DNA of 46,672 nucleotides from NCBI GenBank assembly GCA_938005475.1, contig CALLNY010000072.1, forward strand, positions 1-46,672, read 5' to 3'. A program made the translations under genes and the position numbers. This DNA comes from an uncultured Bacteroidia bacterium (GTDB lineage: Bacteria; Bacteroidota; Bacteroidia; J057; CALLMJ01). The first letter of the stretch is position 1; each line of letters begins with the position of its first letter. Of this stretch, positions 27,206 to 46,553 are shown in pieces. Under the pieces are notes generated by a model. The model was not told the DNA's origin. It worked only from the letters and a program-made list of their open reading frames with translations, and searched no databases.

Positions 27206-27208
27206 TTT

Positions 27209-28158: not shown

Positions 28159-30855
28159 TTAATTCAAAAATCTTCTTAATACGAACTGCAAGATACCTCC
28201 ATTTTTTAGGTAGGCAATTTCTGCGGGAGAGTCTAATCTTGCTAAAACTTGAAACTCCACTTTTGTGCCATCGGGCTTATTGGCTACTACATTCAAAACT
28301 TTTTTTACAGTTAATCCTTCAGATATTCCTTGAATTTCAAAGGTTTCATGCCCTGTTAATCCCAGAGTTTCAACGTTTTGTCCATTTATAAATTGTAGAG
28401 GAAGAACTCCCATACCAACTAAATTGGAGCGGTGAATTCTTTCATAGCTTTCTGCGATAACTGCTTTAATACCTAATAAATTAGTTCCTTTTGCCGCCCA
28501 GTCGCGTGAAGACCCAGAACCATATTCTTTTCCTGCTAAAACAATTAACGGAACACCAGCCGCCTGATAATTCATAGACGCTTCATAAATTGTGGTCTCT
28601 TGACCATCATACAAAGTAAAACCTCCTTCTTTACTTACCAGTTTATTTTTTAATCTTACGTTCGCAAAAGTTCCACGAATCATAACTTCATGATTACCTC
28701 TTCGAGAACCATAAGAATTAAAGTCTTTGGGGTCTACACCGTTTTGAATGAGATATTGCCCTGCGGGGGAATTAGCTTTGATGTTTCCTGCAGGAGAGAT
28801 ATGGTCAGTAGTGATAGAGTCTCCAACACTCAATAAAACTTTTGCTCCTTTAATGTCTTGGGGCTCATTAACTGTCATAGAGATATTTTTAAAGAAAGGA
28901 GCTTCTTGTATGTAGGTTGATTTAGTATTCCATTGGAAAATTTTTCCTTCGGGGGCTTGTAATTTTTGCCAAGATTCATCGCCATCGAAGACGGTACTAT
29001 AAACTTTACGAAAGTCTTCGGGTAATAATACTTTTTGGATAACATCTTGGATTTCTTGTGGAGTAGGCCATATGTCTTTTAAGTAAACAGGTTGAAGATT
29101 AGGGTCGTAACCGAGGGGCTCATTGTATAAATCAATATCTATTCTACCAGCAATAGCGTAGGCTACTACTAACATAGGTGAGGCTAGGAAGTTCATTTTA
29201 ATGTTGGGGTGAATACGAGCTTCAAAATTACGATTTCCAGATAGCACTGCCGCTACGTTTAAATCGTTTTCTACGATGGCTTTGGTAATAGGTTCTAATA
29301 AATCACCAGAGTTTCCAATACAGGTAGTACAGCCATATCCTACCACATGAAATCTTAATGCTTCTAGATCTTCTAAAAGTCCTGATTTTTCTAAATAAGT
29401 AGTAACTACTTTGGAGCCAGGTGCAAGGCTCGTTTTTACCCAGGGTTTTACATTTAAGCCTTTTTGAATAGCTTTTTTCGCAACTAAACCTGCTCCCAAC
29501 ATCACCGAAGGATTAGAAGTATTAGTACAAGAAGTGATAGCCGCTAAAACAATCTGCCCGTCACTTATAGTATATTCTTGGTCTCCCGCAACTACTTTAA
29601 CGGTTTTTATTGCGTTCTCTACCACAGCAACATTAGTATTTCTTTCTGCTTTTTCAATAAATTTTCTTCCGAAGTTAGTTTCCAGGACTTTAGCAACCGT
29701 TGGTTTTACTTGGGTTAATAAAATTCTGTCTTGAGGGCGTTTTGGTCCTGATATAGCAGGAACAATCGTAGATAAATCTAAAATGATTTTATCGGTATAT
29801 TGGATACAGTCTTCATTTTCACGCCATAGAAGGTTTTCTTTGGCATATTTTTCTACAAGTTCAATTTGTTTATCAGAGCGAGCAGTGATTTTCATGTAGT
29901 TAAGAGTTTGATTATCAATAGGGAAGTAGGTAACGGTACAACCAAATTCAGGGGACATGTTGGAAATCGTAGCGCGGTCAGTAACAGCCAAGTTCTCTAA
30001 ACCTTTACCCAATACTTCTACAAATTTACCGACAACACCATATTTTCTGAGTAGCTCTGTAATAGCGAGTACTAAGTCTGTAGCAGTAGCTCCTTCAGGT
30101 AAATTACCTTTTAGTTCAAGACCGATAACTTCAGGTAGTTGCATGACAATGGGTTGTCCTAACATAGCGGCTTCTGCTTCAATTCCTCCAACGCCCCAAG
30201 CAACGACTCCTAATCCATTTACCATGGGTGTATGAGAATCTGTCCCTACCAAAGTATCAGGAAAAGCGTATCCATCACGGTTCGTAATCACTGAACATAA
30301 ATACTCTAAATTTACTTGATGGCAAATACCCATACCCGGAGGCACTACCCTAAAATTTTGAAAGGATTTTTGTGCCCATTTCAAAAGTTGATAACGCTCT
30401 AAATTTTGCTCAAATTCAATTTCTACGTTCTTCTGATAAGCATAAGCAGTACCTGAATATAAAACTTGTACGGAGTGGTCGATGACTAAATCAACAGGCA
30501 CTAATGGATTGATTTTGTCAGTGTCTTTTCCTTTTCTGGCTACTTCAGCTCTTAATGATGCTAAATCTACTACCGCTGGAACTCCAGTAAAGTCTTGCAT
30601 CAATACTCGAGAGGGCATAAAAGGAATATCTACATCTTCCGTTTTAGGTTTCCAATTCAAAATAGCGTGAAGATGTTCCTCCAAAATAGAAAAACCATCA
30701 TAATTTCTTAAAGCATTTTCTAATAAAACCCGTATAGAAAAAGGTAAGTGGCTAACTTTTTTGCCTTGTTTTTCTAACTCTCTCAAACTGAAATATTTAG
30801 ATTCCCCATGAGAGGTCTTTAGCGTTCTCTCAATTCCGAAAATATCTTTACTCAT
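28159..30855 (-). CDS. acnA: Aconitate hydratase (AcnA type)
   Basis: Tricarboxylic acid cycle enzyme that isomerises citrate to isocitrate on a [4Fe-4S] cluster. 898 residues matches AcnA/IRP1-type enzymes. Cluster cysteines are in AAITSCTNTSNPS and GYGCTTCIGNSG. TDHISPAGNI and KEYGSGSSRDWAAKG (active-site serine/arginine of the swivel domain), with IHRSNLVGMGVLPL, confirm the family. It has its own full-consensus promoter and a shared terminator. It needs Fe-S clusters, which the isc genes of this window could supply. Confidence 0.96.
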   Translation of the reverse strand: MSKDIFGIERTLKTSHGESKYFSLRELEKQGKKVSHLPFSIRVLLENALRNYDGFSILEEHLHAILNWKPKTEDVDIPFMPSRVLMQDFTGVPAVVDLASLRAEVARKGKDTDKINPLVPVDLVIDHSVQVLYSGTAYAYQKNVEIEFEQNLERYQLLKWAQKSFQNFRVVPPGMGICHQVNLEYLCSVITNRDGYAFPDTLVGTDSHTPMVNGLGVVAWGVGGIEAEAAMLGQPIVMQLPEVIGLELKGNLPEGATATDLVLAITELLRKYGVVGKFVEVLGKGLENLAVTDRATISNMSPEFGCTVTYFPIDNQTLNYMKITARSDKQIELVEKYAKENLLWRENEDCIQYTDKIILDLSTIVPAISGPKRPQDRILLTQVKPTVAKVLETNFGRKFIEKAERNTNVAVVENAIKTVKVVAGDQEYTISDGQIVLAAITSCTNTSNPSVMLGAGLVAKKAIQKGLNVKPWVKTSLAPGSKVVTTYLEKSGLLEDLEALRFHVVGYGCTTCIGNSGDLLEPITKAIVENDLNVAAVLSGNRNFEARIHPNIKMNFLASPMLVVAYAIAGRIDIDLYNEPLGYDPNLQPVYLKDIWPTPQEIQDVIQKVLLPEDFRKVYSTVFDGDESWQKLQAPEGKIFQWNTKSTYIQEAPFFKNISMTVNEPQDIKGAKVLLSVGDSITTDHISPAGNIKANSPAGQYLIQNGVDPKDFNSYGSRRGNHEVMIRGTFANVRLKNKLVSKEGGFTLYDGQETTIYEASMNYQAAGVPLIVLAGKEYGSGSSRDWAAKGTNLLGIKAVIAESYERIHRSNLVGMGVLPLQFINGQNVETLGLTGHETFEIQGISEGLTVKKVLNVVANKPDGTKVEFQVLARLDSPAEIAYLKNGGILQFVLRRFLN

Positions 30856-30871
30856 TTTTTGAAAATAACTG

Positions 30872-30903
30872 CAAATTTATAAAGAGAATCTGGGCTTTGC
30901 AAA
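30872..30903 (-). promoter_or_regulatory. Promoter of acnA
   Basis: Minus strand TTTG (30903-30900), 20 bases, TAAATTTG (30879-30872); start codon 17 bases on. Full consensus match. Confidence 0.82.
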
Positions 30904-31216
30904 GAAATGAACAGAAATCCCATTGTAAAACTTACTTATTTTGGTTACAAGAAAAGGAAAATAATTAGAGTTTACTGTAAACCAATATTTTTACAAATAA
31001 AAAATTTTATGAACCATTAGGTAACAAGTTGTTAATTTGATTTTAAAAAAGTTCTTTTAATAAAAACTAATTTTTCACTTTAAAGTAAACTATACTGTAA
31101 TCTGTTAATAATGATATCTTGTTCGTAATTTATTTAAAAACAAATAGTTATAGCATACCAAAATTCTATTCAACAAGAAAAATAAAGATACCTTCTAACC
31201 AATACGTAATAACTTG

Positions 31217-31224
31217 TATCTTTG
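31217..31224 (+). promoter_or_regulatory. -7 box of the KPVIYLYP protein gene
   Basis: TATCTTTG, 22 bases before ATG 31247. No TTG at the -33 distance. Confidence 0.5.
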
Positions 31225-31246
31225 CATATAATTTGTTCTTTGCATT

Positions 31247-32278
31247 ATGAAAGTCTTTTTGTTTCTATGTTTAGAGGTATTCGTTCTAATTCACGATTGT
31301 ATTGCCCAAAAAACTCGTTTTTCATGGGAAACTCAAACTCCTATCACGGATAATAGCCCAAAAACAGCCTTAAAAGTAAGTGCAGATACCACATTAAAAT
31401 TAGGTTTTTCTGCAGAACCATACGAAGGTAATTTAGATAAGATTGTTGTAAACTTTAAAAAGGATGCTGAACATCCCAAAAGCATCAAATTAAGAATTAT
31501 TTACGAATACGAATCAATTTCTGAAGATAGTGAATACATTAATTTAGTTATATTTTTAGATACAATCTTACCTGTAAAAGAAAATTCATTGATTTATAAA
31601 CACAACGATGATGATGATTTTTTAAAAAATGGAGAATTAGTCATTCAATTTTTTCCTAATAAAAATTACTCTGAAGAATATTGGATAGAGGATATTTTCA
31701 TAACAGGTAAAAATTTTCGTCAATATGAACAACCGGATGAAAAACCTGTGATTTATTTATATCCAAAAGAAGCTACTTACGTTACCGTAAAGCATCTAAA
31801 TTCAGAAAAGTTTACTTTTAGTTATCCAAATTACGAGCAGAGGTGGAATTTTAAGGTATATCCAAGCGGAGAAATAAAGGATAAAAACGGAAAACTTTAT
31901 CCGTATTTATTTTGGGAGGGTTTATCCAATATAAAAGCTTCTAACAAGATGGGTTATTGTGTTCATAAAGATAGTATTGTGATGTTTTTAGAAGAAAAAT
32001 TGAGTTATCAAGGTTTAAACGATAAAGAAATTACCGATTTTATTACGTATTGGGCTCCAAGGATGCAGAAATCTCCTTACTATCTCATTTACTTTGCTAA
32101 TCATGAATTTGAAAAGGAGTATCCAATTGAAGTAACTCCCAAGCCTGATAGTCAAATCAGAGTATTTATGGTTGCAAAACCTTTACCATATCCCAAGAAA
32201 CTTAAAGTTCAACCGTTAATGAAATCAGAAAGAAAAGGTTTTAGTTATGTAGAATGGGGAGGAAAACTTACTGAATAA
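31247..32278 (+). CDS. Secreted protein with KPVIYLYP-motif domain, function unknown
   Basis: The 343-residue protein has a signal peptide (MKVFLFLCLEVFVLIHDCIA, cleavage before QKTRF). Residues ~18-155 are a beta-rich N-terminal part. The second half opens with DEKPVIYLYPKEATYVTVKH and continues FSYPNYEQRWNFKVYPSGEI, LYPYLFWEG and ITDFITYWAPRM. I recognise this motif series from uncharacterised proteins of Firmicutes and other phyla, where an [EK]KPVIYLYP opening and YLFWE are constant; no biochemical role is known to me. Transcribed alone from its own promoter. Confidence 0.7.
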   Translation: MKVFLFLCLEVFVLIHDCIAQKTRFSWETQTPITDNSPKTALKVSADTTLKLGFSAEPYEGNLDKIVVNFKKDAEHPKSIKLRIIYEYESISEDSEYINLVIFLDTILPVKENSLIYKHNDDDDFLKNGELVIQFFPNKNYSEEYWIEDIFITGKNFRQYEQPDEKPVIYLYPKEATYVTVKHLNSEKFTFSYPNYEQRWNFKVYPSGEIKDKNGKLYPYLFWEGLSNIKASNKMGYCVHKDSIVMFLEEKLSYQGLNDKEITDFITYWAPRMQKSPYYLIYFANHEFEKEYPIEVTPKPDSQIRVFMVAKPLPYPKKLKVQPLMKSERKGFSYVEWGGKLTE

Positions 32279-32301
32279 AGATAGAAAAATTCGGTTCTGA
32301 A

Positions 32302-32332
32302 TTGGTAGTTCTACAAAGATTATGTAATTTTG
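32302..32332 (+). promoter_or_regulatory. Promoter of the O-antigen ligase-lgt-DUF481 operon
   Basis: TTG (32302-32304), 20 bases, TAATTTTG (32325-32332): full consensus. It overlaps the TTG at 32330, so translation must begin later. Confidence 0.8.
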
Positions 32333-32350
32333 CAGTTCATTAAACCTATT

Positions 32351-33796
32351 TTGGAAAAAATACAAAAGCAAATTAAAACTTTAGATATTAAACTTTTAGC
32401 TATTGTCTTTGCGATAGTTGTAACACTCTGTCTTATTTTTATTTGGATAGATAAATATTTATTGTTATTTGTTATTGGAGTTGCGTTTATTATAATCTCT
32501 TTTAGTTTTTTCAACTTCAAACCATTATGGTATTTAGGAATCTTTTGTATGCCTTTGAGTTTAGAATTAAGTCAATTTTTAGGAGATGCTGCACTAACTG
32601 TTCCCAGTGATTTAATTGTTGCTGGTTTTTCAATTTTATTTTTGATGAAAATTCCAAAATACAAAGAAGATTTACAAAAAATCTTTTCTCATCCCATAAC
32701 GGTTAGCATATTACTTTATTTTTTGTGGATGATAATCACCTCGCTTTTCGCAGAAAAACCTATTGTAGCTATAAAATTTACCTTAAATACTTACTGGTAC
32801 ACATCTGCATACTTTCTTTGGACTATATTATTCTTAAAAGATAATAAGAAAGATTTTTATAATTGGCTTTATATCATAGCAATACCTATTTGTTTTGTAG
32901 TAATTTATACGATGTATAAGCACAGCTTTAAAGGTTTTAGTAAGCAAGCCTCTTACTACATTATGGCACCATTCTATAAAGAACACACTGCTTATGCCGC
33001 CTCAATAGCAGTGCTTGTACCTATTTACTTTATACTTTCTATTTATAGTAATCTTAAAAAATGGGTAAAAGTTAGCTTTTTTTTCGTTTTTCTTATTTTA
33101 TTTTTAGGAGTGATTACTTCTTTTACGAGAGGAGCATGGTTAGGAGTATTATTTGCGGTATTTACTTTTTGGGCTTTAAAATACTGGGGTTTTACAAGAG
33201 TGATTATCCCATTTTCACTACCGTTTTTAGCTGGATTTTTAATTTTTTTTAGTGCTGATGTATTTTTTACTTTTTCTAATACTGGAAATTCAGTTGATCA
33301 AGGACTTAATAAGCATATTAAATCTATCATTAACCTAAGAACCGACGAGTCCAATAAAGAACGAATCAACAGGTGGGTTGCGGCAAAGAGTATGTTAGAA
33401 GAGCGCCCGATGACAGGCTTTGGTCCTGGTAATTACGCTATGACTTACGCGCCTTACCAGCAATATGAGTTCATGACATCTATTAGTACCTTTAAGGGTG
33501 ATGGTGGGACAGCCCATAGTGAATTTTTTTTAGCCGCTTCCGAAATGGGTTATCTAGGGTTGTTACTGGTTATCATTTGGTTTCTTACTACTATCATTAA
33601 AGGCTTTCAAGGTGTCTTAAAATCTAAATCTCGTGAAAATCTTTATCTTTATATGGCGGCTTTAACAGGTCTTATGACTTTCTTCATTCATGCTTTTTTT
33701 AATAATTTTTTAGACCAAGACAAGGTAGCTATCCCCGTTTATTTTTGTATGGCAATCATTGTAAGTTTAGATACATTCTATTCTCATGATAATTAA
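32351..33796 (+). CDS. O-antigen ligase/polymerase-like membrane protein (Wzy_C family)
   Basis: About 481 residues with roughly ten membrane helices. The large loop and following helix show family features: ITSFTRGAWLGVLFAVF, then NRWVAAKSMLEERPMTGFGPGNYAMTY and GTAHSEFFLAASEMGYLGLLL, with the conserved R, GxGxGxF-like and H residues. It would join or polymerise surface glycans on the periplasmic side. Start: the frame opens at TTG 32330, but that codon lies in the promoter. The next likely start is TTG 32351, about a dozen bases after the predicted transcript start; the first in-frame ATG would lose the first helices. Overlaps lgt by 11 bases. Confidence 0.8.
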   Translation: MEKIQKQIKTLDIKLLAIVFAIVVTLCLIFIWIDKYLLLFVIGVAFIIISFSFFNFKPLWYLGIFCMPLSLELSQFLGDAALTVPSDLIVAGFSILFLMKIPKYKEDLQKIFSHPITVSILLYFLWMIITSLFAEKPIVAIKFTLNTYWYTSAYFLWTILFLKDNKKDFYNWLYIIAIPICFVVIYTMYKHSFKGFSKQASYYIMAPFYKEHTAYAASIAVLVPIYFILSIYSNLKKWVKVSFFFVFLILFLGVITSFTRGAWLGVLFAVFTFWALKYWGFTRVIIPFSLPFLAGFLIFFSADVFFTFSNTGNSVDQGLNKHIKSIINLRTDESNKERINRWVAAKSMLEERPMTGFGPGNYAMTYAPYQQYEFMTSISTFKGDGGTAHSEFFLAASEMGYLGLLLVIIWFLTTIIKGFQGVLKSKSRENLYLYMAALTGLMTFFIHAFFNNFLDQDKVAIPVYFCMAIIVSLDTFYSHDN

Positions 33797-34604
33797 CCTT
33801 CTGAATTATGTAGTATGGAACGTAAATCCTGTAATCATTGAAATTCTGGGGCGTGAAATTCGTTGGTATGGGCTTCTTTTTGCGTTAGGGTTTGTGGTAG
33901 GACATTACATAATGTCTAAAATTTTTGAAATCGAAAAAATTGATATTAAAAATTTAGATGCATTGACTTATTATATGATTTTTAGTACAGTGATAGGTGC
34001 AAGGCTTGGGCATTGTTTTTTCTATGAGCCTGAATACTACCTATCTAACCCTGCGGAGATTATTGCTATCTGGAAAGGTGGTTTGGCTTCGCATGGTGCC
34101 GCAATAGGTATTTTGTTTGCTTTGTGGTTGTATTCACGCACTCGTCCCGAACAACCATTTCTCTGGATTGTAGATAGAATCGTTATTACTGTTGCTTTTG
34201 CAGGTATTTGTATTCGTTTAGGAAACCTTATGAACCATGAAATTATCGGTAAACCTACTGACCTTCCTTGGGCTTTCATATTTACCTTAGTAGATGATCA
34301 ACCTCGCCATCCTTCCCAATTATACGAAGCTATTTGCTATACTTTTATTTTCATTTTTTTGTATCGCCTCTATTTTCGTAAATATACTACAAAAACTCCC
34401 AAAGGATTACTTTTTGGTTGGTTTTTAGTACTAATTTTTGGTGTGCGTATCCTCATTGAATTTTTAAAAGAAGATCAAGTCGTTAACGAGCAAGATTTAG
34501 TGCTTATACCCGGCTTGAATATGGGTCAAAACTTAAGTATTCCTTTCGTTTTGATTGGTATTTATTTGATTTATAAGGCATATAAAAATAGAAGGGAATA
34601 CTAA
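33786..34604 (+). CDS. lgt: Prolipoprotein diacylglyceryl transferase
   Basis: Transfers diacylglycerol from phosphatidylglycerol to the lipobox Cys of prolipoproteins. 272 residues, about seven membrane helices. Motifs: IRWYGLLFALGF, GARLGHCFFYEPEYYL, WKGGLASHGAAIG (essential His), GICIRLGNLMNHEIIGKPTD (the GNFINGE-type signature, Asn-Glu kept), HPSQLYEA and FGVRILIEFLKEDQ. It would act on the lipoproteins encoded in this window. Confidence 0.93.
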   Translation: MIINLLNYVVWNVNPVIIEILGREIRWYGLLFALGFVVGHYIMSKIFEIEKIDIKNLDALTYYMIFSTVIGARLGHCFFYEPEYYLSNPAEIIAIWKGGLASHGAAIGILFALWLYSRTRPEQPFLWIVDRIVITVAFAGICIRLGNLMNHEIIGKPTDLPWAFIFTLVDDQPRHPSQLYEAICYTFIFIFLYRLYFRKYTTKTPKGLLFGWFLVLIFGVRILIEFLKEDQVVNEQDLVLIPGLNMGQNLSIPFVLIGIYLIYKAYKNRREY

Positions 34605-35474
34605 ATGGTTAAATTTATTAGGTTAGGTATACTTATCACATCAGCATATAGATGCTATTGGTTCCAAATCCAACTTCATGTTTTAGTTTTTTTATTTTTT
34701 ATTTTACATTGTTTTTGTTTGTTATCACAAGAAAAAGTTATAACCAAAGATACCATTCTAACAGGTATCCAAAAGTTGATAAAAAAAATGAAATACAAAT
34801 GGGTCAACGATGCTATATGGCAAACAGGTAATATAGAACGTTTTCTTTACAATACCAATTTTGAATGGCTTTATGTGGATAGCCTTTGGGACTATGAAAT
34901 TAAACCTCGTTTCAGTTATGGAGAGGTTACTCAAAAACAAAATGACGAATTAGTTCGTGGGGTAGTGCAGGAAAGAGAGCAAGGATTAGACTTGCATTTG
35001 GGATTGTTTTCTCAAAGACTTTTTTATAGCTTTGGTTATGGTACGTTAGAAAGAAGTAATTTACGAAAAATAGACTCACGTTGGTTAGCAGGAATAGGGG
35101 TAGGCTGGCATGTATTAAGAACATCCGATAAGAAAAATCGTGTCAATTTGACTGCCGCCCTATTGCGTGAAGAAACTGATTTTGTTAATCCTAAACAGCC
35201 TGATTACCAAATTTTTAGAGCTTCTTTCAGAATAAAAGGTTTTCACGAATTATTTGATAAACACTTGAGGATTTCTTATCTGTCTACTTACATGCCATCT
35301 ATTGCTTTTGATAAAAACAAACGTTTAGTTGCAAATATTACAATAGAAGTACCTATTAATAAAAACTTCCAATTAAGAAGTGCTTTTGATTATACCTACG
35401 AGGGAATTGTACCAGCTATCGTAAAAAAGGTAGATACTCGCACTATGATAGGTTTTGTAATTACGAACTTATAA
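34605..35474 (+). CDS. Outer-membrane beta-barrel protein, DUF481-like
   Basis: 289 residues; ATG follows the lgt stop without a gap. An uncleaved or late signal segment (LHVLVFLFFILHCFCLLSQ, residues ~26-44) suggests that the true start may be downstream, although no closer ATG exists. The body alternates short strands with aromatic ends (RFSYGEVTQKQN, LDLHLGLFSQRLFYSFGYG, WLAGIGVGWHVLRT, VNLTAALLREE, RASFRIKG), as in DUF481/YdiY-type barrels, and ends IGFVITNL. Function unknown. Confidence 0.65.
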   Translation: MVKFIRLGILITSAYRCYWFQIQLHVLVFLFFILHCFCLLSQEKVITKDTILTGIQKLIKKMKYKWVNDAIWQTGNIERFLYNTNFEWLYVDSLWDYEIKPRFSYGEVTQKQNDELVRGVVQEREQGLDLHLGLFSQRLFYSFGYGTLERSNLRKIDSRWLAGIGVGWHVLRTSDKKNRVNLTAALLREETDFVNPKQPDYQIFRASFRIKGFHELFDKHLRISYLSTYMPSIAFDKNKRLVANITIEVPINKNFQLRSAFDYTYEGIVPAIVKKVDTRTMIGFVITNL

Positions 35475-35484
35475 ATTTAAAATT

Positions 35485-38400
35485 TTATTTTTTATACCGA
35501 ATTCCTATAACCATGATGTCATCCACTTGCTCAGCAGATGATTTCCAATTTAAAATTTCATTTTGGAGGATGACCTTTTGGGTATTCAAGGGTTCTTGAT
35601 GGATTTCTAATAGTTTTTTTCGGAAGCGTCCTAATTGATATTTTTCGCCATTAGGATTAAACTGGTCTGCATAACCATCAGAAAATAAATAGAAAATATC
35701 CCCATTTTCTAGGAAGAGTTCGTGGGTAGAAAATTGTTTTTCGGGTTCTCTTCCACCGATAGATTTTTTATCACCCTTATAAACAATCAATTCATTGTCT
35801 CGGATTAGATATATGGGGCGCATAGCAGAGGCAAAAGTCAGTTTGGCAAGGTGGGGCTCATAAAGTACTAAGGCAATATCCATACCATCAAGTACTTGAT
35901 TATCGGTACCTTGTTTCAAAGATTCATGAATTTCTTTATGTAAAGCAGATAAAATTTTAGCTGGGTCAACGATGTTGTTATCACGAATTCTATTTAATAA
36001 GGAAATACCAATCATGCTCATTAAAGCACCAGGCACCCCATGCCCTGTACAATCCCCTGCCGCAATCAACAATTGATTATCTTTTTCATGTATCCAATAA
36101 AAATCGCCACTTACAACATCGCGAGGCATGTATAAAACAAAACAATTATGCTCGAAGATGCTTTTTATTTGTTGTTCTTTCGGAAGCATTGCTTGCTGTA
36201 TCCTTTCTGAATACCGCAAACTATCCATAATTTCTGTATTCTTTTCTTCAATAATTTTCTTTTGTTCTGCAATTTCTTTGGTACGCTCTTGAACTTTTTG
36301 CTCTAATATTTGATTTTCTTCTTCAATTTTTCGTTTTTCTTCTTCTAATTTACGTAATTTATAACGAGTATAGGAGTAAGCCGCCGCTGAAAAAAACATA
36401 ATCAATAAAAAGTAGAACCACCAACTTCTCCAAAAAGGTAAAGCTACTTTTATGTTAAAATAATAGTTTTCTGTCATTTCACCGTTAGGAAGACGAGCTC
36501 TTAAAGCAATAGCATAATTCCCTGCGGGCAAATTGTATAATATCCAGTTTGTACCTTCAATTAAATTCCAATTTCCGTTGTTGATACTTACGAAGTATTG
36601 TACCGCATCAGGATTGAATAGATCAGAAGTTGATAATTTTACGTGAATGTTGTAATCACCATAAGCTAAATAAAGCGGGTGTTCGTAGATTAGGGAGTCT
36701 TTGAAAACAGTACCCCAGAAAGATTTTCCTGTAACCGAAAAACCTCTTACATACACTTTGGTGGTATTACTACTTGGGCTTTTTTGTTTAAATTTTAAAA
36801 TAGCTTTCTTACCTGTTAAAAGGTGTTTATCTTCTTCTACAATAATAAAAGAGGGCACATCATCTAATAACCGAGCGTAATACAACGTATCAAAGGAATT
36901 TTTTTCATTCAAGGAAAGTATCAAAGATTTTGAAAAAAGAAATATTCCCTGATGCGAGGGTATGATTTGATAGTTATCAGGCAAAGTAATATTTAAAGGA
37001 GTAGGTTCATTTTTTATTTGATAAATTTGTTGAGAGGTTAATGCAAACACTTGGTTTTTAAAATTTTGTATAGTTATATTACCATAATCTACTAAAAACC
37101 ACTTTGGGTTTTCAAGATATAAATTCGTTTTAAAAAAACCCTTTACAGTGCCACCGACCAAATAATTATCTTTTATTACAAGGCTATTGATGTAACGGTT
37201 GAGATTTAATGATTTTGTTATTTCCCATGTTTTACCATTTTTTTGAAGTTTTAATACTTTTTGATTACTACTAATCCAAATATTACCTTGATGTTCAATG
37301 ATTTTATTAGTTAAGACAGGCAATTTGAATTCAATTTTTTGATTAACAATTTCATAGAAACCTTTTTGCGTACCTACATAAACAGCATTTTGCCCAAATT
37401 GTATATCGTATACTATCTCTGAAATCCCTTGTATCGGTTTGAATACTAAATATTTCCTATAACTTTCTGATGATTTAATCGCTATTTGATTTACCTTTTC
37501 TTGGTAAGTATAACGATTTTCTACAATAGTATTACTTTGCTGTTTGGGTTGTTGAGGACTTTCATTTTGCGGCTCTAACTTTTCATCGCTACTTTCTTCG
37601 GTATTGGTTTTGTCTTTTTTATTTTTTTTAGAGAATAGTTTTTTAAGAAATCCTTTCTTTTCTTTGGAGTTTTGAGGGTTGATAGTTTTATTTTCTGTAT
37701 TTGATTTGTTATGTGTACCGGTATTTTTATTATCGGTATTTTGTGTATTGGAATTGTCAAATTGAGGTACTACTACGCGTTTAACTATTGTTTTACTTAC
37801 TGTAAAATTTACCATTTCTGACTCCTTAGGAATCTCATAAGACAAGTAAAACAAACCGTTATCAGTACCGACCCACAATTGTTCATGTTTTTTGGCTAGG
37901 CAGTGAATATTACCAATCAAACCTACTGCATTAGAATAATCTTCAAATTTTTTACTCCAATAAATGCGAGAGAAGATAAATGGATGAGCTAACCATATTC
38001 CTTGGTGATTATCTAAAAATATAGCATGGCTTTCATTATCAGGTAAACCATGTATAGTAGTAATTTGTTGCAATATTTGACCGTTCTTTCGGTTAATGAC
38101 TAATAAACCTTGGTTGTTTGTAGCGGCGATTATTTCCTCATCAATAACGGTAATTCCATAAATATAGCTATTTTTTGCGGAATTATACTGTCCTAGTAAC
38201 CTAAATTTGGAACTTTCATAAACATAAATGGCATTATCAAGGGTTACCAAATAAAAGGCTTCAGAAGTAGCATAGTAATTTTGGATATATTGGTTTTCAA
38301 GGATTTCTCCACCTGCAACAGTTTCAAATTCTAAAGTTTTGTTATTGATTTTTAGCATTCCAAATGAGGGTTCTGCAATCCATATTTCCTCTTTAAACTT

Positions 38401-38874
38401 TATCATACCCCCCATAGGTCCATCGCCTGGTGCTTTAATCGATTTATGTGTATTTTTTTCAATATTAATGTTCAAAATTTCTTCTTCGGAGAAGAGAAAA
38501 ATATTTTGGTTAGTGATTTCTAATTGTTTAAAAGATGCTTGAAGCTCTAAGTACTTTTCAGTTTGGTAGGGGAGACGAGTTAAATCAGATATTTTTCCTA
38601 AGTATTTATCGGTCAAATAAAAAAGTTGATTTTGAACAATTTTTAGGTCAAAGACGGGGCTTTCTACAGGAATATTGAACCAATTTTTTCCATCATAAAC
38701 AAGAATACCTTGGGAATTAGATGTAAAAATTACACCGTTATCAGCGATGGCAAAAGCTCCTAGATGATTAGTTTCTTTTTGGTAATCGGTTTTAAACGTT
38801 TTTACGTAATAATACCCGTTCTGAGCAAAAGTTAACTCAAAATAAAGCAACAATAGAAGTAAAAAAAATCTCAT
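35485..38874 (-). CDS. Membrane sensor: beta-propeller/Y_Y_Y domain with cytoplasmic SpoIIE (PP2C) phosphatase
   Basis: 1,129 residues. A signal peptide (MRFFLLLLLLYFELTFA) leads a periplasmic two-component-regulator propeller (~20-730), a Y_Y_Y domain (~735-810), one membrane helix (WRSWWFYFLLIMFFSAAAY), a coiled coil (KLRKLEEEKRKIEEENQILE..., ~840-890) and the linker RYSERIQQAMLPKE. The C-terminal SpoIIE phosphatase (~900-1129) shows MPRDVVSGDFYW, AGDCTGHGVPGALMS and LFSDGYADQ with metal-binding aspartates intact. It probably dephosphorylates an anti-sigma-factor antagonist or similar target in response to an external signal. An unusual Asn/Lys-rich insert lies at ~373-451. One base after the Cas6-like gene, so co-transcribed with it. 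Confidence 0.9.
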   Translation of the reverse strand: MRFFLLLLLLYFELTFAQNGYYYVKTFKTDYQKETNHLGAFAIADNGVIFTSNSQGILVYDGKNWFNIPVESPVFDLKIVQNQLFYLTDKYLGKISDLTRLPYQTEKYLELQASFKQLEITNQNIFLFSEEEILNINIEKNTHKSIKAPGDGPMGGMIKFKEEIWIAEPSFGMLKINNKTLEFETVAGGEILENQYIQNYYATSEAFYLVTLDNAIYVYESSKFRLLGQYNSAKNSYIYGITVIDEEIIAATNNQGLLVINRKNGQILQQITTIHGLPDNESHAIFLDNHQGIWLAHPFIFSRIYWSKKFEDYSNAVGLIGNIHCLAKKHEQLWVGTDNGLFYLSYEIPKESEMVNFTVSKTIVKRVVVPQFDNSNTQNTDNKNTGTHNKSNTENKTINPQNSKEKKGFLKKLFSKKNKKDKTNTEESSDEKLEPQNESPQQPKQQSNTIVENRYTYQEKVNQIAIKSSESYRKYLVFKPIQGISEIVYDIQFGQNAVYVGTQKGFYEIVNQKIEFKLPVLTNKIIEHQGNIWISSNQKVLKLQKNGKTWEITKSLNLNRYINSLVIKDNYLVGGTVKGFFKTNLYLENPKWFLVDYGNITIQNFKNQVFALTSQQIYQIKNEPTPLNITLPDNYQIIPSHQGIFLFSKSLILSLNEKNSFDTLYYARLLDDVPSFIIVEEDKHLLTGKKAILKFKQKSPSSNTTKVYVRGFSVTGKSFWGTVFKDSLIYEHPLYLAYGDYNIHVKLSTSDLFNPDAVQYFVSINNGNWNLIEGTNWILYNLPAGNYAIALRARLPNGEMTENYYFNIKVALPFWRSWWFYFLLIMFFSAAAYSYTRYKLRKLEEEKRKIEEENQILEQKVQERTKEIAEQKKIIEEKNTEIMDSLRYSERIQQAMLPKEQQIKSIFEHNCFVLYMPRDVVSGDFYWIHEKDNQLLIAAGDCTGHGVPGALMSMIGISLLNRIRDNNIVDPAKILSALHKEIHESLKQGTDNQVLDGMDIALVLYEPHLAKLTFASAMRPIYLIRDNELIVYKGDKKSIGGREPEKQFSTHELFLENGDIFYLFSDGYADQFNPNGEKYQLGRFRKKLLEIHQEPLNTQKVILQNEILNWKSSAEQVDDIMVIGIRYKK

Positions 38875-38875
38875 T

Positions 38876-39583
38876 TTATTTTATGATGTCAATCATTCCT
38901 AATCCGAAATCAGTATATTCTCCGAGACCTGCTTCCCAAGCAAATTCTATAAGTTCTTTAGAACCTGAGAGTTTCATTTCAAATTCAAAACCTCTGACTT
39001 TAAGCCCGGGTTCTACTGATTCTAAATTTATCATGATAGTACGAGAAAGCATTTCTTTCACTTCACAATGAAAGTCGTCACTTTGTGGAAGTTTGCCATT
39101 GATTTTTTGGTATTTATCAATCAAAGAATTTTTTATGAGTTCTTCGTAATTATTATAATTCGGGCTCATAAATAGTGTTCTATCCTCTTCATTTTTTTTA
39201 GTAGCACAAACTGGAGTTACCGTCCTAAAAATGAGTTCATTATTAAAGTTAGGTTTAGGTATCCATTCAACACTATCTATCCATAGCTCACAATCTGAAA
39301 ATTTATCTTTAAAAATTAATTTCTTTCCTACAAAAACGCTAGGGTCTATATTTTGGTTAGTAGCAATAGAAAATATCCAGTAAATAGGTAGTTCATAAAA
39401 TTCATTCCTATCTAATCTTTTTTGAAAGTTATTGGAAAAGGGCTTACCAAAGTTAAATGCTTTATAATCAATTTTTTGTTCTTTAAGAACACTCTCAAAC
39501 CAAGATTTAATTTCAGCATGGTAGTAAATAGGTAATATTGCTGGTTTTTGATAGCTCTGGAAATGAAATTTAATTCTCATCAT
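38876..39583 (-). CDS. cas6: Cas6-like CRISPR RNA endoribonuclease family protein (orphan)
   Basis: 235 residues matching Cas6 along its length: MRIKFHFQS start with LPIYYHAEIKSWF (first beta-strand and helix), FNFGKPF, YWIFSIAT, FRTVTPVCATKK, LFMSPNYNNYEELIKNSLIDKY (the L-SP-x(n)-L-x(3)-NL-x-x-KY region) and a C-terminal second ferredoxin fold ending in the Gly-rich loop AGLGEYTDFGLGMIDI (residues 218-233). Cas6 cuts CRISPR precursor RNA inside repeats. No array or other cas gene is in the window. The His normally found around residues 35-50 is absent; H22 or Tyr20/21 might substitute. Start at 39583 or the adjacent ATG 39580. One base ahead of the SpoIIE sensor gene. Confidence 0.82.
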   Translation of the reverse strand: MMRIKFHFQSYQKPAILPIYYHAEIKSWFESVLKEQKIDYKAFNFGKPFSNNFQKRLDRNEFYELPIYWIFSIATNQNIDPSVFVGKKLIFKDKFSDCELWIDSVEWIPKPNFNNELIFRTVTPVCATKKNEEDRTLFMSPNYNNYEELIKNSLIDKYQKINGKLPQSDDFHCEVKEMLSRTIMINLESVEPGLKVRGFEFEMKLSGSKELIEFAWEAGLGEYTDFGLGMIDIIK

Positions 39584-39604
39584 TTTTTTAAACTGTTTGA
39601 ATTA

Positions 39605-39635
39605 CAAATTTATAACTTTTACACTTACAAAAATA
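39605..39635 (-). promoter_or_regulatory. Candidate -7 boxes of the cas6-like/sensor operon
   Basis: Two minus-strand matches to TAnnTTTG: TAAATTTG (39612-39605) and TATTTTTG (39635-39628), 21 and 44 bases before the start. Neither has a TTG at 19-21 bases. Confidence 0.4.
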
Positions 39636-39882
39636 CAGATTATTTAAGTAATGTGGATAAAATAAATTTTTTCGTTAGTAGACTGTTTGTGGAATTATTT
39701 TTTAATGTATTGATTATCAATATTTTAAAAATTGCTTTTTGTTTTGCTCACAAATTAACAAGAGTAAATAAGAAACTACAATCGTAATGCACTTGTAACC
39801 TACAAAAGTGAGTTTATCTAATAGTATATTAAATTTTAAAATATTATAAATCAAAAAGTTATAATTTTTTATTTGTATAGAT

Positions 39883-39913
39883 TTGGAAAGTTGAGTTCGG
39901 TATTGTAATTTTG
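39883..39913 (+). promoter_or_regulatory. Promoter of a short RNA unit/leader
   Basis: TTG (39883-39885), 20 bases, TAATTTTG (39906-39913), full consensus. Transcription would start near 39920, only about 40 bases before a strong terminator hairpin. Confidence 0.75.
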
Positions 39914-39919
39914 TACACT

Positions 39920-39988
39920 GTTTTTTAAACGACTGAATGAAGTGCAATTTGAGTAATAAGAACTACTTAGTAAAAGTAGTTCTTTTTT
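39920..39988 (+). ncRNA. Putative small RNA or attenuated leader (~70 nt)
   Basis: Bounded by a full-consensus promoter and an 11-bp terminator hairpin, giving a predicted transcript of about 70 nt. It could be a free small RNA, or the leader of the ABC permease gene at 40021, whose expression would then need read-through. A 22-codon ORF (39937-40005, MKCNLSNK...) runs through the hairpin and may be a leader peptide or chance. It matches no RNA family that I recognise. Start inferred from the promoter. Confidence 0.45.
39958..39988 (+). terminator. Strong hairpin with U-run inside the permease leader
   Basis: AAGAACTACTT (39958-39968) pairs perfectly with AAGTAGTTCTT (39974-39984) around AGTAA, followed by TTTTT. 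Lies 33 bases before ATG 40021. Confidence 0.85.
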
Positions 39989-40020
39989 TATTAGGGTTAT
40001 CGTAGAACTTTTTAATTATA

Positions 40021-41019
40021 ATGAAAATTGCACGTAGTATTTTTTTTACGGTCAGCGTAATATGGGGTTTATCTACGATTTTATTTATCTTATTTAGATG
40101 GGTCATTGACCCCACTCAAATGTTGGCAGGGCAAAGAGTTGACTCCCAAACCTTACAAAACATTCGTAGAGAATTGGGTTTAGATTTGCCTTTATACCTC
40201 CAATACCTGAATTACCTAAACGATTTATCTCCAATAGGAATTATAAAGGATTACCATCAAGGTTATGGTTTTATAGGAAGTTTGGGAATTAAATTCCCTT
40301 TTTTAGGAGTTTCTTTCTTCTACAAAGAAAATGTATGGAACTTATTTACTCAGCATGTCTTTGCTACCTTTTTATTAGCAACGCTTGCAGTTATTCTTGC
40401 GTTTTTTGGGGCTTATTTTACAGGTAAATTTTTGTATTTAAGGAACATAATCTGTTGGACTTCTATCGTCAAATCCGTCAGTAATTTTCTTATTGCTTTA
40501 CCGTCTTTTGTGATAAGTATTTTATTGCTATGGTGGTTTAGTTTAGAATGGAACTTATTTCCAATATCAGGTTATTTTGTACAAAAAGATGTTTTAACTT
40601 TAAGAAACTATGTAGATTTATCGTATTTGGTTTTACCGATTATAGCTTCCGCTTTAAGACCATATGCTATATTCTTGCTGATGCTCCTACAACTTTTAGA
40701 GGAAGAGGAACAAAAAGAATATGTAAAAACAGCAAAATCAAAAGGTTTGAGCCGCTCTGCCATTTATGAGCAACATATTTTTCCTAATATATTGCTTACT
40801 TTAATTAGTGTATTTTTTAATTGGTGGGCATCTTTGTTAGCAGGTAGTTTTTTTATTGAATATATTTTTGATTATCCTGGAATCGGAAAATTGTTAGTAG
40901 AGTCTATTCTTCAAAACGATTATCCTATGGTTTCAGGGCTATGTCTAATAACGGCTGTAATGTTTTTAATCATCAATACTATCAATGAAATTTTGGTAAT
41001 TCGTTATCGTGTTAGCTGA
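40021..41019 (+). CDS. Oligopeptide/dipeptide ABC transporter permease (DppB/OppB family)
   Basis: 332 residues, six membrane helices. N-terminal signature RRELGLDLPLYLQYLNYL, the EAA loop EYVKTAKSKGLSRSAIYEQHIFPN that contacts the ATPase, and FFIEYIFDYPGIGKLLVESILQNDYPMVSG are diagnostic of the B-type peptide permease. Partner permease (C), ATPases and binding protein are not adjacent: the next genes are pyrR and pyrB. It sits behind a promoter-terminator leader and may be regulated by read-through. Confidence 0.88.
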   Translation: MKIARSIFFTVSVIWGLSTILFILFRWVIDPTQMLAGQRVDSQTLQNIRRELGLDLPLYLQYLNYLNDLSPIGIIKDYHQGYGFIGSLGIKFPFLGVSFFYKENVWNLFTQHVFATFLLATLAVILAFFGAYFTGKFLYLRNIICWTSIVKSVSNFLIALPSFVISILLLWWFSLEWNLFPISGYFVQKDVLTLRNYVDLSYLVLPIIASALRPYAIFLLMLLQLLEEEEQKEYVKTAKSKGLSRSAIYEQHIFPNILLTLISVFFNWWASLLAGSFFIEYIFDYPGIGKLLVESILQNDYPMVSGLCLITAVMFLIINTINEILVIRYRVS

Positions 41020-41099
41020 ATTACAACCCCATTTTGTTCGTTCTTTTTAGGCGTTTCACTATATGGAACATCAGTTTCTATCCTTTTATGTTTTTTTAT

Positions 41100-41107
41100 T
41101 ATTTTTG
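41100..41107 (+). promoter_or_regulatory. Candidate -7 box of pyrR
   Basis: TATTTTTG only four bases before ATG 41112, implying a nearly leaderless message; no -33 TTG. I see no PyrR-binding attenuator upstream. Confidence 0.35.
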
Positions 41108-41111
41108 CGTT

Positions 41112-41645
41112 ATGGAATCTCGTGAATTAGCGATAGAACGTTCAACGTTCGTAGAAATTTTAAAATCACTATCCCAACGAGTTGCAGAAGACTACAGAAC
41201 TGAAAAAGAGCTAGGTTTTTTAGGTATTCAAAAACGAGGTTCAGAGCTACTTAACTTGTTAAAACCTCTATTAAAAGACCTATTAACAGATTCTATACTC
41301 TATTTTGGGGATTTAGATATTACATTTTTCAGAGATGATTACAGAAAATCAGGGGCATTACTTAAACCTAATACTACGCATATTCCTTTTTCATTGGAGC
41401 AAAAACCTATTATTTTAGTGGATGATGTCCTTTTTACAGGGCGAACGGTACGTGCCGCATTAGATGCTATGCTAGCCTACGGAAGGCCTTCCTCCGTAAA
41501 ATTGTTAGTTTTAGTGGATAGAGAAGGCTTTCGCCAGCTACCTATTGAAGCTCAGTATATCGGAAAGAAAATAATCACTCGTCAGAATCAGCGTATAATT
41601 TTAGATTGTGAAAATTATCAAGTTTGGATTGTCAACCATGAATAA
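41112..41645 (+). CDS. pyrR: Bifunctional pyr operon regulator/uracil phosphoribosyltransferase PyrR
   Basis: 177 residues from ATG 41112 (MESRELAIERSTF), the normal PyrR size. The frame is open 26 codons earlier, but that part is hydrophobic and unlike the family. PRPP-binding motif IILVDDVLFTGRTVRAALDAM is complete, with LGFLGIQKRG and LDITFFRDD. PyrR makes UMP from uracil, and in Firmicutes binds pyr mRNA. Overlaps pyrB by eight bases, so the two are co-expressed. Confidence 0.9.
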   Translation: MESRELAIERSTFVEILKSLSQRVAEDYRTEKELGFLGIQKRGSELLNLLKPLLKDLLTDSILYFGDLDITFFRDDYRKSGALLKPNTTHIPFSLEQKPIILVDDVLFTGRTVRAALDAMLAYGRPSSVKLLVLVDREGFRQLPIEAQYIGKKIITRQNQRIILDCENYQVWIVNHE

Positions 41646-42594
41646 TAACCAAGAGACTACCCTAAGTACAAACCATTTATTAGATATCAGGACGTTACCT
41701 GTAAATGATATCACCATTTTGTTGGATACTGCAAAATCATTCAAAGAAATCTTACAAAGACCTAACAAGAAAGTTCCAGCATTAAGAGATATTACCATTG
41801 CCAATTTATTCTTTGAAAATTCTACGCGTACGCGAATTTCTTTTGAATTAGCAGAAAAAAGACTTTCAGCGGATACTATCCATTTTAGTGCAACAGGTTC
41901 AAGTGTAAAAAAAGGGGAGTCTTTGTTAGATACTGTGAACAACATATTAGCAATGAAAGTGGATATGATAGTGATACGACATGAGCAAAATGGCGCTCCT
42001 CATTTTCTCAGTCAATATATTCCTGTACCTATTATCAACGCAGGGGATGGTACGCATGAGCATCCTACCCAAGCCTTATTAGATGCCTTTTCTTTATTAG
42101 AAAAGTTTGGTTACCTTAAAGGACTAAAAATTGCTATTATTGGTGATATTTTACATTCTCGCGTAGCGCGTTCTAATATTCATTTACTAAAAAAGATGGG
42201 AGCAGAAATCACCGTTTGCGGACCACCTACGTTAATTCCTAATCATATTCAAGAACTCGGTGTTCAAGTCCATTATAATCTCATAGAAACTTTACAATGG
42301 TGTGATGCGGCTAACTTTTTACGTATTCAATTAGAACGCCAAAATATCAAATATGTCCCAACATTACGCGAGTATGCCTATTTATACGGATTGGACACTA
42401 CGAAATTCAAATCGTTAAATAAAAAAATAGTCATTTTACATCCTGGACCAATCAACCGAGGAATTGAGCTTAGTTCTGATATAGCAGACAGTGAACACGC
42501 TATTATTTTAGACCAAGTAGAAAACGGGGTTGCTATCAGAATGGCTGTGTTGTATCTATTAGGACAGAAAAATAAAATTCCTGTGCGAGCATAA
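41638..42594 (+). CDS. pyrB: Aspartate carbamoyltransferase catalytic subunit
   Basis: First committed step of pyrimidine synthesis. 318 residues from ATG 41638, which overlaps pyrR; the GTG at 41608 lies deeper in pyrR and is rejected. FFENSTRTRISFELAEKRL (carbamoyl phosphate STRTR), the loop Ser/Lys in SSVKKGESLLDT, IRHEQNGAPHF, NAGDGTHEHPTQALLDA and HPGPINRGIEL are intact. No regulatory pyrI follows. Confidence 0.94.
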   Translation: MNNNQETTLSTNHLLDIRTLPVNDITILLDTAKSFKEILQRPNKKVPALRDITIANLFFENSTRTRISFELAEKRLSADTIHFSATGSSVKKGESLLDTVNNILAMKVDMIVIRHEQNGAPHFLSQYIPVPIINAGDGTHEHPTQALLDAFSLLEKFGYLKGLKIAIIGDILHSRVARSNIHLLKKMGAEITVCGPPTLIPNHIQELGVQVHYNLIETLQWCDAANFLRIQLERQNIKYVPTLREYAYLYGLDTTKFKSLNKKIVILHPGPINRGIELSSDIADSEHAIILDQVENGVAIRMAVLYLLGQKNKIPVRA

Positions 42595-42616
42595 TTCGTC
42601 TAATTTTTTTATATAT

Positions 42617-44824
42617 TTAATTGGTTCTCTCTTTTTTAATTTCGTTTTTGAGGCAATTTAGTGAGATTTTGTGTTGAGGATTTTTGTAGAAAGATCGGTC
42701 TGGGAGGTTTATAGTAGGATCATGATAGGCAGATTGCATAAATTCTCCCCATATAGGTAAACACATAAATGCGCCTTGTCCGTAATAATAAGATTTAAAG
42801 AAGACCCTTCTATCAACACAGCCTGCCCAAATAGCAGTAACCATATTAGGAGTTATTCCAACAAACCAACTATCTGCATGACTTTGAGTTCTACCGTTCA
42901 TACCTGCGATGTCGGTGGGTATTCTGTAATTACTTCTTGCTTCAAAAGCAGTTCCATTGTTAGCAGTGTAACGTAAGCATTCTAAAGTGAAACGTGCACT
43001 TTTTTCTGATATAGCTTTTCTTTTGTGGGTAGTAAAATCAGCAAGAAGATTACCATTTTTATCTTCAATTTTGGTAACAAAGGTGGTTTGGTTCCAAATT
43101 CCTTGGTTAACAAAAGGCGCATAAGCAGATACTAATTCAAAAAGGTTTAGGTCTGCGGTGCCCATTCCTAAGGAAGGAACCGATTTTAATGGTGAAGTAA
43201 TTCCTAATTTCCCTGCAATATCAATTAAAAAATCAACTCCAACTTTCTGGGTTAATCTTGTGACGACGATATTATACATCATAGAAAAGGCTTGAATTAG
43301 GGGTAAAGGTTCCGTAATCCATCCTCCAATATTTTTGGGGGTCCATAAATCACCTTCTTGGGTTTTAATTGAGATAGGAGTATTTTGTTCTATGGAGCAG
43401 GGCTCTAAACCTTTTTCAAAAGCGGCGGCATAAACAAAAGGCATAAAAATAGTACCAGCTTGCCTTCTTTCTTGTTTAACTAAATCCATCGGAAAAAAAC
43501 GGTAATCAATACCTCCTACATAAGCTAAAATATGCCCGTTGGAAGGGTCAATGGTAATGAGTCCTGTATGAATTAATCCTGCATAATATTTTAGGGAGTC
43601 CCAAGGAGTTAAAACTGTATCTTTTTCGTAATTAGGAGATTTCCAATCAAAAACTTTCATTAACACATGTCTATCAAAAGATTTACGTATTTCTTCTTCC
43701 TTCAAGCCTGCATTTTTAGCGATATGATATCTTGGAGAGCGTTTCATGGCGGCAATTAAAATTTGTTCGTTTTTTTCCCAAGGTTTGCGTGTTTTAAGCT
43801 CCTGATTTAATAAATCTTGTAAATAAGGAATACGATTCTGTATAGCTCTTTCTGCATGCTCTTGTAAGCGTGAGTCTAATGTGGTATAAATTTTAAGACC
43901 ATCAGTATAAAGGTTATAATTATTTTTTTCGCACCATTCTTTTAAGAATTGTTGTAGGGCTTTTCGGAAATATAAAGCGGTTCCCTGAGGAACATAATCT
44001 TCATAATAATTTTTTTGAACCACACCAAGAGGTAAGCTTTTATATTTTTCGTATTCTTCTTTTGAAAGATATCCATATTTGTTTAATTGAGCTAGAACTA
44101 TGTTTCTACGTTCTAATGCTTTTTGGGGTTTTTTGATGGGGTGATATAAACTAGGTCCTTTTAAGATACCAACCAACAAAGCGCATTCATGCGGTTGTAG
44201 TTCATTCGCATTTTTATTGAAGTAGGTTTTTGCGGCTGTTTGTATTCCATGAATATTTCCACCGTAGTTAACTGTATTAAAATAAAACAGGATAATCTCT
44301 TCTTTTGAATAGTTACGCTCTAATAACCAAGCAACGATAGCTTCTCTGAGTTTTCTAAAAATACTTTTTTTCCTTCCTATGTTATCAAATAGATTTCTTG
44401 CTAATTGCATGGTTATAGTAGAACCTCCGCGTACTCTTCCCTCCGTCATTTCTACAAAAACCGCCCCTAACGCTCTCGTATCCACACCTTGATGATGATA
44501 AAAACGTATATCCTCCGTTGCTATTAACGCATTGATTAACGTTTTGGGTAAGTCTTTATATCGTATGTTAATACGAAACTGCTCATCATAAAAATTACCC
44601 AATAATTTACCATCTCTTGAATATACCTGACTAGATACCGCTAAATGGGGATTTTCTAAAGTCCTTAAAGATGGTATATCCCAAATTAATATCAGTAAAA
44701 AAAGGAACTGGATGATAATAATTCCTATTAAAAACTGAAATATTCTTTTTCTAAAATAATAAAAACGATGTTTCGGATTGAGAACTATATTGATTTTATG
44801 CTTAATATGCCTAATGAACTGCAT
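42617..44824 (-). CDS. Class A penicillin-binding protein: active glycosyltransferase, degenerate transpeptidase
   Basis: 735 residues. One N-terminal membrane helix, then a GT51 transglycosylase domain with catalytic motifs intact: ATEDIRFYHHQG (EDxxFxxHxG), RVRGGSTITMQLARNLF, RKLREAIVAWLLERNYSKEEI and YFNTVNYGG. The transpeptidase fold is recognisable, but all three active-site motifs are changed: SxxK is TIFM (458-461), SxN is MYN (516-518), and KTG-T is MNG-R (642-645). The flanking family sequence is kept (RRQAG...PFVYAAA, SHADSWFVGITPN). It should polymerise glycan strands but not cross-link peptides or bind beta-lactams covalently. Diverges from the ArsR-type gene. Confidence 0.9.
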   Translation of the reverse strand: MQFIRHIKHKINIVLNPKHRFYYFRKRIFQFLIGIIIIQFLFLLILIWDIPSLRTLENPHLAVSSQVYSRDGKLLGNFYDEQFRINIRYKDLPKTLINALIATEDIRFYHHQGVDTRALGAVFVEMTEGRVRGGSTITMQLARNLFDNIGRKKSIFRKLREAIVAWLLERNYSKEEIILFYFNTVNYGGNIHGIQTAAKTYFNKNANELQPHECALLVGILKGPSLYHPIKKPQKALERRNIVLAQLNKYGYLSKEEYEKYKSLPLGVVQKNYYEDYVPQGTALYFRKALQQFLKEWCEKNNYNLYTDGLKIYTTLDSRLQEHAERAIQNRIPYLQDLLNQELKTRKPWEKNEQILIAAMKRSPRYHIAKNAGLKEEEIRKSFDRHVLMKVFDWKSPNYEKDTVLTPWDSLKYYAGLIHTGLITIDPSNGHILAYVGGIDYRFFPMDLVKQERRQAGTIFMPFVYAAAFEKGLEPCSIEQNTPISIKTQEGDLWTPKNIGGWITEPLPLIQAFSMMYNIVVTRLTQKVGVDFLIDIAGKLGITSPLKSVPSLGMGTADLNLFELVSAYAPFVNQGIWNQTTFVTKIEDKNGNLLADFTTHKRKAISEKSARFTLECLRYTANNGTAFEARSNYRIPTDIAGMNGRTQSHADSWFVGITPNMVTAIWAGCVDRRVFFKSYYYGQGAFMCLPIWGEFMQSAYHDPTINLPDRSFYKNPQHKISLNCLKNEIKKERTN

Positions 44825-44838
44825 ACAATTGCTTTATG

Positions 44839-44846
44839 CAAAGGTA
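44839..44846 (-). promoter_or_regulatory. -7 box of the PBP gene
   Basis: Minus-strand TACCTTTG, 15 bases before the ATG at 44824; no -33 TTG at 20 bases. Confidence 0.45.
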
Positions 44847-44903
44847 TATGTTTTTTCAATTTTAAATGTACTACCTATTTTACAGTTATTATAAAATTAT
44901 TTG

Positions 44904-44911
44904 TATATTTG
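44904..44911 (+). promoter_or_regulatory. -7 box of the ArsR-type regulator
   Basis: TATATTTG, 15 bases before ATG 44926; rules against the longer frame from 44866. No clear -33 TTG. Confidence 0.5.
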
Positions 44912-44925
44912 TGAAAGAAATTTTA

Positions 44926-45243
44926 ATGAAAAAATCTTTTACTAAAGAGCAAGAACAAATTGCAAGATTTGCTAAAGCATTGTCACATCCTGCAAGAATT
45001 GCTATCTTACAATTACTTAACTCCCAAACCTGTTGTTATCATGGAGATATGGCCGAAGAATTGCCAATTGCGAAATCTACTCTTTCTCAACACTTGAAAG
45101 AACTTAAAGATGCAGGATTGATTCAAGGAAATATAACTCCGCCGACAGTTAAATATTGTATTAATAGAGAAAATTGGGAAACTGCCAAAGCCCTCTTAAA
45201 TGCTATCTTTGACAGCCCATTGAACGAAAATAATAATAAATAG
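44926..45243 (+). CDS. ArsR/SmtB-family winged-helix regulator
   Basis: 105 residues. KALSHPARIAILQLLNSQTCCYHGDMAEELPIAKSTLSQHLKELKDAGLI is the standard ArsR DNA-binding unit: alpha-helix, recognition helix KSTLSQHLKEL, then the wing GNITPPTVKYCIN (all positions shown in pieces). A CCYH cluster near residue 38 could bind metal or sense oxidation, but the classical CxCxxC of ArsR is absent. It is divergent from the PBP gene and convergent with a glycosyltransferase, so its target is not obvious; autoregulation is likely for the family. Confidence 0.85.
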   Translation: MKKSFTKEQEQIARFAKALSHPARIAILQLLNSQTCCYHGDMAEELPIAKSTLSQHLKELKDAGLIQGNITPPTVKYCINRENWETAKALLNAIFDSPLNENNNK

Positions 45244-45261
45244 TTAATTTTCAATAACTTG

Positions 45262-46338: not shown

Positions 46339-46351
46339 CTGTTTATTAACA

Positions 46352-46549: not shown

Positions 46550-46553
46550 CAAT

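Follow-up and report, generated by a model that had tools for sequence, protein, structure and literature searches.

A Cas6-family protein without the canonical catalytic histidine segment is conserved beside a SpoIIE-type sensor phosphatase in a genus of Bacteroidia

Cas6 is the enzyme that matures crRNAs, and Cas6 proteins that act in trans are known. Type II-C systems use RNase III and not Cas6. A full-text literature search returned no described Bacteroidota propeller/SpoIIE sensor that shares an operon with a Cas6 gene, and nothing relevant on stand-alone Cas6 or on Cas6 with SpoIIE. Some crenarchaeal Cas6 enzymes cleave without any histidine; one of them, Sso1437, is active on CRISPR repeats via a network of basic residues and works with CRISPR arrays (PMC3652601). 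The locus described here pairs a histidine-segment-deficient Cas6 with a sensor phosphatase. It lies in the window, which is the whole stretch of DNA analysed and corresponds to one entire contig (C72, 46,672 bp) of a 2.63-Mb genome in 105 contigs (G000). The comparison genome (G001) is a MAG of the same genus, CALLMJ01, and the evidence for the gene pair comes from these two genomes, G000 being fragmented.

The orphan cas6 gene (38876..39583, minus strand) encodes 235 aa and the sensor gene (35485..38874, minus strand) encodes 1129 aa, and a single base (38875) separates the end of cas6 from the start of the sensor gene. The sequence-only reading had described two ORFs on the same strand, one base apart, which is borne out at the coordinates it gave. 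Its assignment of the smaller product to Cas6 is confirmed by Pfam PF01881 (7.6e-23, 82.1 bits, cut-off 23), NCBIfam TIGR01877 (74.4 bits, cut-off 58.65), and PADLOC Cas6b (7.2e-33, residues 2-235 of 235). The protein is full-length, as the Cas6b model spans it and the glycine-rich loop near the C-terminus is present. This loop, GLGEYTDFGLG (residues 219-229; 38897..38929, minus strand), belongs to the second RAMP domain, and its glycines are invariant in the alignments. The further statement that no repeat array or other cas gene lies within 39 kb to the left or 7 kb to the right holds for the 46,672-bp contig, in which the array scan found no CRISPR-like array and the PADLOC models no other cas gene; it does not extend to the genome, which has a type III-A operon and a nine-repeat array. 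Besides Cas6, the PADLOC matches in the window are a cysteine desulfurase (DndA/SspA match), a weak PDC-S48 match, and a small HTH protein that matches only part of Csa3. An AT-rich element of about 60 bp (31113-31173) has about 20 dispersed matches in G001 (79-88% identity) and is not repeated in the window; it was considered as a hairpin RNA target and rejected, as it has no stable fold (z -0.15) and had no repeat copies in the sequence sampled for that test. The last 138 bases of the window (46535-46672) match four G001 contigs at 85-91%, in three of the four near the contig start, which suggests that the contig breaks at a multi-copy element.

In typical Bacteroidia relatives of this Cas6, an LHExGY-like segment contains a histidine and, in a profile alignment, falls in the region of Pyrococcus furiosus (Pfu) His46. 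In a 17-sequence alignment, a 17-column gap replaces this segment in the Cas6 proteins of both the window and G001. The place where the 'LHExGY' segment, with the catalytic histidine of ordinary Cas6, is absent corresponds to residues 37-41, KIDYK (39461..39475, minus strand), in this alignment and in the profile alignment to Pfu Cas6. In both proteins, the stretch that follows the first helix is without the catalytic histidine (Pfu His46). By alignment only, the conserved tyrosine of 'SSWIY' (Pfu Tyr31) is replaced by Glu30 in the window Cas6, and Lys41 possibly matches Pfu Lys52. The only histidine nearby is His22 (39518..39520, minus strand) at the start of helix alpha1, which is kept in G001; at this position, typical relatives in the 17-sequence alignment have glutamine or other residues. 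His22 is a possible substitute catalyst. A structure prediction from the two sequences was too poor for use (pLDDT 47.6). The loss of the histidine is no proof of lost activity because crenarchaeal Cas6 cuts without it (PMC3652601), and with His22 nearby and Lys41 perhaps equivalent to Pfu Lys52, activity by other residues is therefore possible. To judge from the sequence, the loss of the catalytic segment would make processing less likely than binding.

The partner gene encodes, from profiles and sequence reading, a signal peptide, beta-propeller repeats, a Y_Y_Y-like domain, one TM, a coiled coil, and a SpoIIE phosphatase; the signal peptide, TM and coiled coil are those read from the sequence. 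The SpoIIE (PP2C-type) phosphatase domain (35494..36081, minus strand) matches PF07228 at 2e-23 over residues 932-1127, and its metal-binding motifs GDFYW, DCTGHGVPGALMSM, FSDGYAD, and DDI were all read from the sensor sequence. A SpoIIE domain, Asp motifs (DCTGHG among those read), and an N-terminal propeller are thus found in one protein, as in a SpoIIE-type sensor. Among the sensor domains named in the sequence-only reading, the propeller (Reg_prop, PF07494) and SpoIIE stand above their Pfam cut-offs, whereas Y_Y_Y stays below its own (14.9 vs 26.6 bits).

The pairing is not unique to this strain. In G001, the Cas6 ortholog is 81% identical and the orthologous sensor, 67% identical, follows directly. 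Pieces of the window from 27001 to 46672 map to many separate G001 contigs and nearly all neighbour adjacencies are broken; the groups kept together are O-antigen ligase-lgt-DUF481, a gene pair at 41034-42594, and cas6-sensor, which are likely operons. The genes flanking the cas6-sensor pair differ on both sides between the two genomes. A block of about 50 bp right before cas6 is near-identical in both species and bears TAAATTTG, which fits the Bacteroidota -7 consensus, while the remaining intergenic region is not conserved. Within this region, the promoter-like block TTTTTGTAAGTGTANAANTTATAAATTTGTAATTC with the Bacteroidota -7 box (TAnnTTTG) lies about 15-50 bp before cas6 (39599..39633, minus strand) and is also present in G001; its exact sequence occurs at a single place within the sequence sampled. 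The position of the promoter-like block, immediately before cas6 in each of the two species, makes it probable that a real operon starts with cas6. The proposal that cas6 and the sensor gene share one operon is strengthened by the survival of the pair among broken adjacencies and by the conservation of the block upstream of cas6 only. Between the two genomes, cas6 has a dN of 0.109 and a dS of 1.66, giving a dN/dS of about 0.07, a rough ratio as dS is near saturation, and the orphan gene is under strong purifying selection. The operonic cas6b of the same genomes (dN 0.115, dS 1.51) is under about the same constraint. Neither species has a frameshift or stop in the orphan cas6.

A RAMP search of G000 found a complete type III-A operon on another contig (C31:28200-36035) and no further RAMP cluster. 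The operon comprises a Csx1/Csm6-type CARF-HEPN gene, csm5 (assigned by RAMP match and position), csm4, csm3, csm2, cas10 with GGDD, and cas6. The Cas6 of this operon belongs to another family, Cas6b_N plus Cas6b_C, with its FHHH motif intact (PF17262, 4.3e-28). No CRISPR-Cas locus lacking a cas6 of its own was found elsewhere in the genome: the sole class 1 effector operon found carries this separate Cas6b with an intact HHH motif, and pre-crRNA processing at III-A therefore needs no orphan cas6. The operon is preceded by two 36-nt repeats (C31:36576-36611 and 36642-36677), 66 bases apart and 19% different. In the same place, G001 has an array of ten full 36-nt repeats, truncated where its contig begins, and then the same III-A operon. 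Read from these repeats, the III-A array of G000 is a remnant, because G001 has ten full repeats there and G000 two diverged ones. The III-A genes of C31 stay intact despite the two-repeat array and the lack of Cas1 in the assembly. Searches of the G000 genome gave no Cas1, and no Cas3 match passed the cut-off.

About 33% of G000 was scanned for arrays, with the beginning of almost every contig in the sample. CRISPR is present in this genome, which holds the III-A operon and, in the sampled part, one live-looking array besides the two diverged III-A repeats. This array (C54:5318-5982, L127) has nine repeats of about 47 nt (GTTGTGATTTGCTTACGAATCTTTGAAATTGTTATCTTTGCAACA...) and 30-nt spacers, and runs off the contig end; no cas genes for it were found in the sampled sequence. 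Repeats of 47 nt with this look are typical of Bacteroidota type II-C. The candidate repeats in L113, L116, L104, L161, and L178 proved to be coding or tandem repeats instead of arrays, and L197 was rejected by its likeness to L178. In G001, contig C129 (L064) carries cas1-cas2 together with a TPR-like gene of 589 aa and three repeats of 30 nt, GTTTTAATCGAACCATAGTGGAATTGAGAC; this repeat type is not that of the III-A array in G001. The base composition of C129 fits the G001 MAG, and a binning error is possible. In G000, the sampled 33% contained no copy of the 30-nt repeat.

Beyond the genus, the window lineage groups with typical Bacteroidia Cas6 in the 17-sequence alignment and tree, on a long stem of 1.61 changes per site with short tips of about 0.1 beyond it. 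In a search of 395 genomes of the class, the next-best match scores 67.7 bits vs 529 for G001, and a profile of the two-species Cas6 matched the genus mate only. No relatives were found in viral contigs, plasmids, or phages. The gene-neighbourhood survey supports the pairing within the genus, where both species keep it; in the loci examined outside the genus, no SpoIIE gene lies next to a Cas6 relative. Lone Cas6-family genes occur among housekeeping genes in G042 (L006:1498-2232) and G059 (L007:1498-2253). Both pass the TIGR01877 cut-off, both lack the catalytic histidine, and they form a separate clade with full support in the 17-sequence tree. G042 encodes a Cas9-sized protein with RuvC motifs, followed by Cas1 and Cas2, and has no Cas10 and no Cas3 above the cut-off; its CRISPR-Cas appears to be type II only. 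Because its locus is type II-like and Cas10 and Cas3 are missing at these cut-offs, the Cas6 of G042 has no class 1 system to serve. In G092 (L068:1432-2901) and G015 (L042), two different Cas6-family genes, one typical and one shorter, are close together; in G092, they are direct neighbours, with cas5-like and HD genes after them.

The best explanation, with a probability of about 0.45, is an orphan Cas6 that probably does not cleave and is retained, in an operon with the sensor, for RNA binding. A Cas6 of CRISPR descent would have left the cas loci and lost the segment with the canonical catalytic histidine, and selection would keep it at the head of a two-gene operon whose other gene encodes an envelope SpoIIE-type sensor phosphatase. 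Such a Cas6 may be non-cleaving or very slow, its RAMP domains gripping a small hairpin RNA, and the ligand would probably be a host RNA rather than the III-A pre-crRNA. The shared transcript would set the dose of Cas6 together with that of the sensor. The phosphatase itself presumably has a separate protein partner as its target, for which a STAS-type regulator would be typical, and would not act directly on Cas6. From the operon alone, we infer a coupling of Cas6 to an envelope signal. The main rival is a second, trans-acting Cas6 that binds or processes the CRISPR transcripts of III-A or of an unseen array while being encoded away from the cas loci, and it is possible, although we lean against it. 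The III-A operon has been kept in the genus and looks intact, G001 has a 36-nt III-A array of ten repeats, and the different 30-nt repeat on its cas1-cas2 contig could suit a Cas6 of the window kind; yet the III-A operon has its own Cas6b, and just two III-A repeats, with 19% divergence, are left in G000 while the orphan cas6 is strongly constrained. An array could be missed in a scan of about 33% of the genome, but the 30-nt repeat is absent from that part of G000, no Cas1 was found in the genome, and the live-looking array has 47-nt type II-like repeats that need RNase III and not Cas6. Action in trans has precedent. Cleavage without histidine also has one in crenarchaeal Cas6 (PMC3652601), against which stands the loss of the histidine segment in the orphan protein.

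The same crenarchaeal active site (PMC3652601) is the precedent for an active endoribonuclease that would cut a non-CRISPR RNA via His22 or Lys residues, with its abundance coupled to the sensor operon. Both species share His22 and Lys41; however, these are two sequences only, and typical relatives have glutamine or another residue at the His22 position, so that this explanation is unlikely. A leftover cas6 of a lost CRISPR locus, drifting before the sensor gene by chance, would fit the degenerate active site, the stem branch of 1.61 changes per site before the two-species split, and the decay of the III-A array in G000. Such a relic is nevertheless disfavoured by the dN/dS of about 0.07, and also faces the 81% identity, the reading frame free of frameshifts and stops in both species, and the conserved promoter block; we consider it very improbable. 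The retained, probably non-cleaving RNA-binding Cas6 can be set in a wider proposal, in which Cas6 was taken out of CRISPR to become a non-cleaving RNA-binding regulator with an envelope-sensing SpoIIE phosphatase, and G042 and G059 represent a second, independent exaptation; this is offered tentatively and is rather doubtful as a whole. If true, the locus would clearly exemplify a Cas protein recruited into host RNA biology, in a genome that also encodes a separate and seemingly intact Cas6b. If the protein serves CRISPR in trans instead, crRNA handling would be placed under a signalling operon.

Compared to Pyrococcus furiosus Cas6 (TIGR01877 / PF01881; PDB 3i4h/3pkm), the window Cas6 has the same two-RAMP architecture, the glycine-rich loop, and a score above the curated cut-off. 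In contrast, it lacks the catalytic histidine segment and the catalytic tyrosine, and its gene, which is remote from arrays and other cas genes, shares an operon with a sensor phosphatase gene. The best PDB sequence matches of the window Cas6 are the Pyrococcus Cas6 proteins 3ufc and 3qjp/3qjj (PH0350), which are archaeal and distant, the single-sequence alignment covering residues 74-234 only. We take these to include proteins described as non-catalytic. Like the crenarchaeal Sso1437 (PMC3652601), the window Cas6 is without the canonical catalytic histidine. Its partner is similar to the two-component-propeller / SpoIIE sensors of Bacteroidota in having a signal peptide, propeller repeats, a TM, a coiled coil, and a SpoIIE domain with Asp motifs.
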